Positions 11,980 through 38,734 of a stretch of DNA of 52,333 bases are shown in pieces. Positions within the stretch are counted from its first letter, which is position 1; each line of letters opens with the position of its first letter. Source of the stretch: a bacterium (GTDB taxonomy: Bacteria > Patescibacteriota > CPR2 > UBA1875 > JAJYID01); contig JAJYJC010000004.1 of assembly GCA_021796415.1 (NCBI GenBank), forward strand, positions 1 to 52,333. Reading direction: 5' to 3'. Below the pieces are notes generated by a model, which worked only from the letters and a program-made list of their open reading frames with translations, searched no databases and was not told the origin of the DNA. A program made the translations under genes and the position numbers.

Positions 11980-12405
11980 CTATTTCTCGACTTCTACTCC
12001 CATGCTCCTTGCTGTGCCCGCGATAATGTTCATGGCGTGCTCTACGTCGTTTGCGTTTAGGTCTTCCATTTTTGCCTCGGCGACACGCCTAAGCTGATCC
12101 TTTGTCATCTTCCCCACTTTTTCCTTTTTACTGGAACCAGAACCTTTTTTCAGGCTAATTTCTTTTTTTATAAGCTCTGCTGCCGGCGGCTGCTTGGTAA
12201 TGAAATCAAATGTTCGATCTTCATAAACGGTTATGACAACCGGAAGCTTTGTGCCCATCTGCTCCTTGGTTTTTTCATTGAAAGCATTGCAAAAATCCAT
12301 GATGTTTAGACCATGTTGGCCGAGCGCAGGACCTACCGGTGGCGCAGGATTTGCCTGCCCCGCTATTACCTGCAATTTAATTTTGGTTTTAATTTTCTTT
12401 GCCAT
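11980..12405 (-). CDS. rplK: Ribosomal protein L11
   Basis: '[29 protein letters not shown]'. Confidence 0.98.
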
Positions 12406-12539
12406 TACTAATTTTCTCCTACCAACTACTAATCATACTTATTTACTAATTCTCCTTAAAGTTTATATCCTTTTATTATGCTCACTAATCTAGAATGTGT
12501 ATATTAGTATTATTCGTAATTGGTTACACTTAATTGGTA
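12406..12539 (-). repeat. Dispersed intergenic repeat family C, copy 1 (nusG-rplK spacer)
   Basis: ttactaattttctcctaccaactactaatcatac...tattagtattattcgtaattggttacac. Confidence 0.85.
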
Positions 12540-13082
12540 CTAAATTTTCTTTACCTGCAGTGAATCAAGCTCTACTGGCGTCTCTCTGCCAAACATGCTC
12601 ACTAGCACTTTGATTTTTCCTTTCTCTTCATCTACAACATCAACAGTGGCATCAGAACCTTTGAAGGGCCCGTCATTTATACTTACCAAATCACCTTTTC
12701 GAAGGTCAATTTTGTATTTTGGTTCCTCAACCCCCATTCGCTTCTGAATATTCTTAATCTCTGTTTCCGCCAATGGGACAGGAATGGTTCCTGAGCCGAT
12801 AAAACCGGTTACCTGGGGGGTGTTTCGAACTACATACCATGAATGTTCCGTAACGATCATATTTACCAGGACGTATCCTTGGAAAATTTTCTTTTCGACC
12901 ACTCGCCTTTTGCCGTTTCTGATCTCGATCGTCTTTTCTTTCGGTACGATAACGTCAAAGATAAGATCGGAAAGGCCGAGAGAATCTATTCTCTGGCGCA
13001 GATTTTCCGCCACCCTCTCCTCATATCCTGAGTACGTGTGGATGGCGTACCAGTTTCTTTCTTGTGATTCTTGTTTTGTCAT
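12540..13082 (-). CDS. nusG: Transcription termination/antitermination protein NusG
   Basis: 'RNWYAIHTYSGYEERVAENL', KOW 'KGDLVSINDGPFKGSDATVDVVDEEKGKIKV'. Confidence 0.98.
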   Translation of the reverse strand: MTKQESQERNWYAIHTYSGYEERVAENLRQRIDSLGLSDLIFDVIVPKEKTIEIRNGKRRVVEKKIFQGYVLVNMIVTEHSWYVVRNTPQVTGFIGSGTIPVPLAETEIKNIQKRMGVEEPKYKIDLRKGDLVSINDGPFKGSDATVDVVDEEKGKIKVLVSMFGRETPVELDSLQVKKI

Positions 13083-13208
13083 TACTAATTTTCTCCTACC
13101 AACTACTTATCATACTAATTTACTAATTCTATTTAAGGTTATTTATTTTTCCTCATGATTGCTATCCAAGAATATGCACATTTGTATTATTCGTAATTGG
13201 TTACACTA
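13083..13208 (-). repeat. Dispersed intergenic repeat family C, copy 2 (secE-nusG spacer)
   Basis: ttactaattttctcctaccaactacttatcatac...tttgtattattcgtaattggttacac. Confidence 0.85.
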
Positions 13209-37608: not shown

Positions 37609-38088
37609 TTATTGTAGCCAAGAATTTTTCTTCACAAACCCCAGCTTTTTCCAGCGCTTTCCAAGTCCCAGATAATCACCGGCGCCAACTGATGCAAGGG
37701 TCAAGAGAACCAAAATATAGACAATGTGTTCGTCAATTAGCGGATTCATTTTGATAGGCAGTGATGCCAGCCATATGAGAAACATCATTATAGATCCCAC
37801 ATATGCAGAGAGCTTTACTCTGAAGCCGAGTATTAAACCGACTCCCACGAAAAGCATTCCCAGCATAAAGAGCCAATCCACAACCACATTACCCGCCAGA
37901 CTGTGAAATGTACCGGCAAAAGGACCTTGCACAGATTTTAGAAACCCTGCCGTTGGCGATACGCCGTTAAGCCAAGCTTTCCCTGACTTAGTCGCATAGC
38001 CCAAGCCAAAAAGCTTATCCAGAAAAGTCCACAGAAATATCCAGCCCATCACGATTCTCGTGAGTCCAAATAAATATTCTTTTTTCAT
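37609..38088 (-). CDS. DoxX/DoxD-like membrane protein
   Basis: 4-TM layout 'LTRIVMGWIFLWTFLDKLFGLGY ... GVGLILGFRVKLSAYVGSIMMFLIWLA'. Confidence 0.75.
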   Translation of the reverse strand: MKKEYLFGLTRIVMGWIFLWTFLDKLFGLGYATKSGKAWLNGVSPTAGFLKSVQGPFAGTFHSLAGNVVVDWLFMLGMLFVGVGLILGFRVKLSAYVGSIMMFLIWLASLPIKMNPLIDEHIVYILVLLTLASVGAGDYLGLGKRWKKLGFVKKNSWLQ

Positions 38089-38207: not shown

Positions 38208-38239
38208 ACCACTAGCCTAAACCGGTTTAGGCTAGTGGT
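38208..38239. promoter_or_regulatory. Perfect 32-bp palindrome (candidate operator) between the TrpR-like and DoxX-like genes
   Basis: ACCACTAGCCTAAACCGGTTTAGGCTAGTGGT equals its own reverse complement; just upstream of TTGCCA-16-TATTAT on the minus strand. Confidence 0.8.
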
Positions 38240-38246
38240 TCACCCG

Positions 38247-38591
38247 TTAATTAATTCTTACTCCTTTGTATCTTATGGTTCTTGTTCTTTTTCGATACGT
38301 CGTTATTTTCTTCTTAGTTAATTTTGCGCTTTTTTCAAAGCCAAAACCACATTTCAAGCTAAGCCTGCTGATTGCAGTTGCGCTCATACCTGTTGCGATC
38401 TTTATATCAGCATATGTTGACCCTTCGCTGATCATTTTCAAAACCTTGTATCGTCTGGCAATATCGTTAATTTCTCTCGTAGTCAAAACATTGTCAAAAA
38501 TACTTCCAACTTCATCCCTATTTCTGCATTCCACTAATAAATCCATTACATCGGCAATTTCTTTATCATGCCAAATCAATCTTTTATTCAT
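38247..38591 (-). CDS. TrpR/YerC-family HTH regulator
   Basis: 'LLVECRNRDEVGSIFDNVLTTREINDIARRYKVLKMISEGSTYADIKIATGMSATAISRLS'. Confidence 0.9.
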   Translation of the reverse strand: MNKRLIWHDKEIADVMDLLVECRNRDEVGSIFDNVLTTREINDIARRYKVLKMISEGSTYADIKIATGMSATAISRLSLKCGFGFEKSAKLTKKKITTYRKRTRTIRYKGVRIN

Positions 38592-38634
38592 AACACCCTC
38601 CTTCATTATTAGATATTAAATTAAATCAACCAAT

Positions 38635-38660
38635 ACTAGTCTAAACCGGTTTAGACCAGT
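38635..38660. promoter_or_regulatory. 26-bp near-perfect palindrome (candidate operator) upstream of the TrpR-like gene
   Basis: ACTAGTCTAAACCGGTTTAGACCAGT; one mismatched pair; same core as 38208-38239. Confidence 0.8.
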
Positions 38661-38700: not shown

Positions 38701-38734
38701 ATAAAGAGAGACTCGGGTTCGAGTCTCTCTTTAT
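38701..38734 (-). terminator. Terminator of the str/rpsJ operon
   Basis: ATAAAGAGAGACTCG ggtt CGAGTCTCTCTTTAT, 15-bp perfect stem 23 nt after the rpsJ stop. Confidence 0.8.

Follow-up and report, generated by a model that had tools for sequence, protein, structure and literature searches.

The window, by which we mean the whole 52,333-nt stretch of DNA analysed, carries on its minus strand a gene for a helix-turn-helix (HTH) protein of the TrpR/HisR (YerC) family (positions 38247–38591; 114 amino acids from the ATG at 38591). A start at 38606 is also possible and gives the longest frame (38247–38606, 119 amino acids), but the ATG at 38591 is taken as the start because it fits the orthologues (M[NS]KRL[IV]W). 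Trp_repressor (PF01371) is the only Pfam domain found in the protein, at 49 bits with a cut-off of 27. The score for the yecD_yerC model TIGR02531 (52.4 bits) exceeds its cut-off of 42.2, and that for the TrpR equivalog TIGR01321 (21.9 bits) falls below its cut-off of 67.25. The AF2 model (mean pLDDT 78.6) has the plain, all-helical HTH fold of TrpR with a short tail, and its best matches in the PDB are the HisR-like structures 3frw, 3g1c and 3kor, followed by Escherichia coli TrpR (1tro and 1trr). One match, 8VD6, was disregarded, as the paper naming it describes a designed protein.

Two matching palindromes, neither assigned to a strand, bracket this gene. The downstream palindrome (38208–38239) is perfect, spans 32 bp with zero spacer and begins 7 nt past the stop codon; the upstream palindrome (38635–38660) is 26 bp long, its central 18 bp matching perfectly and one pair outside them mismatched, and ends 43 nt before the ATG. 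A preliminary description of this DNA had located both, with gaps of 8 nt and about 44 nt where we measure 7 and 43. The two share the 14-bp core CTAAACCGGTTTAG (CTAA-N6-TTAG; 38217–38230 downstream, 38641–38654 upstream), which occurs exactly twice in the window and again elsewhere in the source assembly (G000; 903 kb in 49 contigs, 90% complete), and no other zero-spacer dyad of the 52-kb window reaches an arm length of 8. Near its own gene, the regulator has a palindrome with the 4-N6-4 geometry of the validated HisR operator, in different letters. The pairing of such a regulator with two matching dyads, as the preliminary description had it, is supported: the downstream palindrome is a likely binding site and the upstream one is placed for autoregulation, both sites being putative. 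Elsewhere in the window, a gene whose product looks like NusG (12540–13082, minus strand) is bracketed by similar AT-rich direct repeats (12399–12530 and 13080–13207) that share an exact 22-mer (12509–12530 and 13186–13207); here an intergenic segment has been duplicated, with no relation to the TrpR sites.

On the 5′ side of the regulator, a terminator-like inverted repeat 3′ of rpsJ (38701–38734, no strand assigned) separates rpsJ from the regulator, and similar hairpins also follow rpsJ in relatives. On the 3′ side lies a DoxX-like gene (37609–38088, minus strand; PF07681, 24.8 bits against 23.6), which had been proposed as the target of the downstream palindrome on the strength of a promoter-like element, TTGCCA-16-TATTAT, reading toward it. 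The element is present on the minus strand (38199–38172), and the palindrome lies 8 nt before it, so that it may control doxX. However, a scan for elements of this type found 2 where shuffles give 2.0, which makes the element weak evidence. The relatives examined that keep the rpsJ–doxX neighbourhood have neither a regulator nor a motif site between the two genes, and in another genome of the genus (G002) a different TrpR-like paralogue sits after doxX; both observations speak against the proposed target. No his gene adjoins the locus.

G000 holds five PF01371 genes. In three of these, a matched pair of palindromes around the gene was evident at first sight, with a different centre for each, and a repeat-pair search in three genomes of the genus found brackets at 11 of 11 TrpR-like paralogues. 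Upstream copies lie 23–93 nt before the ATG and downstream copies 0–88 nt past the stop, and the two copies agree at 23–26 of 26 bases; the arrangement is the same in the public records of two relatives. The centres are ACCGGT at the window regulator, ACTGGT at L003 and L027, TATGTA at L005 and L030, TATATA at L026, TGTAGT at L022, TATAGT at L004 and L029, TTTAGT at L023 and an imperfect form at L001. Common to all types is a (C/G)TA(A/C)-N6-TTAG core, and the surrounding sequence is private to each type. Similar palindromes are thus present at the regulator's orthologues, where the preliminary description had suggested looking for them. L001 (G000:C31:2349–2666), the fifth G000 paralogue, adjoins tgt; its single-base frameshift within a stretch of A reflects either gene decay or an error in sequencing. 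A regulator of the TTTAGT type, L035 (G001:C41), is surrounded by five sites, three upstream and two downstream, with a DDE-type transposase-like gene just beyond.

The downstream copy faces a convergent gene at 4 of the 11 paralogues (L004, L005, L029 and L030), where a regulatory role for it is not obvious. The bracket is therefore not explained in general by control of the next gene, the downstream site as a general next-gene operator is rejected, and the window palindrome need not be an operator of doxX. We also considered that the palindromes act in RNA, as intrinsic terminators or mRNA-stabilizing hairpins unrelated to the protein. As RNA, the downstream palindrome is a strong hairpin (z −3.6), and solo sites between tandem genes, described below, lie about 100 nt past a stop. 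But no T-run adjoins the window palindrome on either side, for which reason an intrinsic terminator was rejected; the same sequence also lies upstream of the gene; several sites in the genus are imperfect palindromes (L001 and L022); and the sequence itself, beyond its pairing, is conserved and paralogue-specific. An origin in RNA structure is accordingly very unlikely. A phage or defence origin was likewise rejected, with PADLOC and PHROGs searches empty, and no relative of the genus TrpR-like alignment was found in viral contigs.

Across the phylum, PF01371 is present in 112 of the 287 genomes drawn. None of 28 high-scoring canonical TrpR/HisR genes has a bracket. Among 40 divergent members, hand-picked from the lower part of the scored list, 20 have a pair at a threshold of at least 18/22 and 13 at a threshold of at least 20/22, compared with 12 and 6 of 200 unrelated control genes (Fisher's test, p = 1.4 × 10−10 and 1.6 × 10−7, respectively). 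These are draft genomes, with gene calls from a simple codon score. In a tree of 69 proteins, which is poorly resolved, the bracketed ones do not form one clade yet are clustered, with 11 changes against 23 for shuffled labels. In many bracketed proteins of other families (L225–L231, L241 and L252), the C terminus carries a motif resembling K[RK]KYPMYFWPQ; those of the genus end in RYKGVR.

The bracket sites of distant regulators follow a common 28-bp dyad plan, tending to an outer TACT and an inner ATA. With the rest of the protein removed, recognition-helix distance correlates with site distance (partial r = 0.43 over all members), and the correlation holds without the genus (partial Mantel r = 0.38, p about 0.002), shared descent being only partly controlled. 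Within the genus alone, the partial Mantel test is weak (p = 0.053, 7 types). The dyad search misplaced the half-sites of L004, L022 and L023, whose palindromes are imperfect, and these were positioned manually on the common core.

The palindromes extend well beyond the brackets. Exact matches to the motif TNNNCTAANNNNNNTTAGNNNA number 39 in G000 (2 for the reversed control), 28 in G002 (1) and 14 in G001 (1), and in the sister genus 10 in G003 (1) and 6 in G005 (0); outside these two genera, counts are near control level. The G000 excess, together with the same paired arrangement at every paralogue of the genus, argues that the window bracket is not due to chance. About 30 of the G000 sites are solo and intergenic. 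In the genus and sister genus together, solo sites between tandem, divergent and convergent genes number 39, 13 and 8, against 42, 10 and 8 expected from the intergenic-space proportions of G066 (p = 0.52), a fit to random intergenic placement with no promoter bias and no avoidance of convergent regions. For tandem sites, the median distance is 100 nt from the upstream gene and 192 nt to the one that follows. Neither G000 nor the near-complete G002 has a bracketed owner for sites of the TACAGT type, and in the sister genus a search with the genus profile found no TrpR homologue in G003 or G005 at E up to 1, although G003, 97% complete, retains its ten sites. A plain autoregulator with a small regulon fits poorly with this random placement, with the orphan TACAGT type and with sites in a sister genus that lacks TrpR. 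The preliminary description would have given up its proposal had the palindrome proved to be scattered genome-wide like a repeat with no link to regulators; the site family is indeed dispersed between genes, and at the brackets it is strictly linked to regulator paralogues.

Many sites occupy orthologous intergenic positions, including the 3′ side of groEL, ileS, trpS, priA, pheA and others (genes named from their protein sequences), and such positions sometimes carry a different centre type, a further point against a plain regulon. Site alignments indicate vertical descent with paired changes: between G000 and G001, orthologous sites show symmetric compensatory changes, and most of the sites compared are at conserved positions. 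Mixed-type clusters also occur: a stretch of about 170 bp upstream of ileS (G000:C3:24380–24552) contains four palindromes, representing three centre types, and further clusters lie upstream of trpS (C21:80487 and 80526) and between divergent genes (C23:17419–17517).

In three comparisons, the six-base centre reads as inverted (TACATA versus TATGTA) inside conserved arms; the apparent inversions are at ileS, ftsY-like and scpB-like intergenic sites in G000, G002, G003 and G005. Such inversion of an often asymmetric N6 spacer would suit a site recognized by a host tyrosine recombinase (dif-like, 11-6-11), with the TrpR-like genes riding between sites. The genus sites read arm-TAA-N6-TTA-arm, which the dif consensus resembles. 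Phylum-wide, however, the arms differ among regulators and track the regulator, not a common recombinase, and conservation of TAA-N6-TTA does not generally extend beyond the genus. Constant arms around a TAA-N6-TTA centre were thus not found, a Xer/dif-type site was rejected, and we give this explanation hardly any credence.

A search of about 355 kb of G066 for dyads, made without reference to regulators, returned to the same class of gene. It recovered the pairs of the regulators at C10:86604 and C8:23382, and an ownerless pair (C10:104223 and 104676) proved to enclose an unlisted open reading frame that is TrpR-like by sequence. Some solo dyads are placed as operators are, with a start codon about 10 nt further on (C10:156523, C8:129666 and C8:120081). 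In G106, the palindrome of L245 has six copies (0 in the control), three of them off the gene's contig, and two of these three are in convergent regions on the open-reading-frame maps; its solo sites differ by symmetric changes (A..T, G..C and C..G) around ACTAGT.

Taken as a whole, this anatomy recalls that of the REPtron, in which a RAYT gene is flanked by two REP palindromes (PMC2817692). As in RAYT/TnpA-REP systems, a gene lies between two cognate palindromes, solo copies are dispersed and clustered between genes, partner and repeat co-vary and several types coexist in one genome. The palindromes might then be a dispersing intergenic repeat that a TrpR-like partner maintains or spreads, the bracket marking the ends of a (formerly) mobile unit and not two operators. 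Palindromy kept through paired changes, the use of convergent regions, the four-site cluster at ileS and the differing site types at orthologous positions all favour this explanation. So do empty-site comparisons at doxX and tgt, where relatives lack any motif site and the unit is missing as a block. At two other loci the picture is mixed: a degenerate solo dyad, different in type, stands at the nuc–dedA locus of G003, and ruvB–MFRRV in G005 has one solo site and has also lost a neighbouring gene, so that deletion is as likely as insertion. The L023 locus falls outside the comparison with G000, as its contig stops at that point. Against a REP-like origin, the bracketed protein has Trp_repressor as its only domain, on a plain TrpR fold, with no HUH/Y1 (tyrosine) transposase or other nuclease; copies are far fewer (0–2 close solo copies per type in the 355 kb of G066); and the sites compared between G000 and G001 mostly hold conserved positions, unlike polymorphic insertions. 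We consider this explanation unlikely overall. Somewhat more doubtful still is its fullest form, a patescibacterial counterpart of REP/RAYT in which nuclease-less TrpR-fold proteins and their private 28-bp palindromes are co-diversifying, semi-autonomous units that spread palindromes between genes, are gained and lost as blocks and leave palindromes that outlive the proteins. Because the anatomy is REP-like but the transposase is absent, a repeat–partner system is placed second, after a family of regulators and operators.

That family, in which each TrpR-like regulator binds its own private palindromes and represses itself, is in our judgement probably the correct account, as far as sequence comparison can tell. 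The window gene would encode a TrpR/HisR-fold DNA-binding protein of a diversified patescibacterial branch, presumably a dimer like its relatives, and both palindromes would be its own specific binding sites. Binding upstream would repress the gene itself. More speculatively, the downstream site may aid autorepression by bridging to the upstream site, or may control the next gene where that gene is co-oriented. The paralogues of one genome would have different private sites, protein and site diverging together, a step suggested by correlation between sequences. The palindrome–gene–palindrome unit would be present or absent as a block at a given locus in related genomes, its ends being defined with limited exactness. 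Solo sites elsewhere are probably binding sites too, in a small set with overlap, of which some but not all lie at promoters.

Much of this has precedent. YerC-type proteins were said in the preliminary description to lack a defined regulon, which is wrong: YerC is HisR, a histidine repressor whose 20-bp target, bound together with histidine, is the palindrome cacTTTA-N6-TAAAgtg and which regulates itself in roughly half of genomes (PMC9413887). The proteins described here share with HisR their family (TIGR02531/PF01371), fold, palindromic 4-N6-4 operator geometry, lineage-specific consensus and, by prediction, autoregulation. By contrast, HisR is usually single-copy with his targets, whereas the number of paralogues per genome here reaches five to eight, and many have a site of their own on the 28-bp plan on each side in place of the HisR operator, no link to his genes being seen. 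With E. coli TrpR they share the fold, putative dyad operators and predicted autorepression, but the core is CTAA-N6-TTAG instead of CTAG-N4-CTAG and the window protein scores below the TrpR equivalog cut-off. No earlier account of such a bracket was found in the open PMC literature.

How transcription is controlled in Patescibacteria is little understood. The double bracket and the sites that lack a regulator raise the question of whether these palindromes are operators or something closer to a repeat–partner system. A rule that reads regulator and site from matched palindromes in sequence alone would yield protein–operator pairs by the dozen and, with them, a natural set for studying how the specificity of an HTH recognition helix changes.
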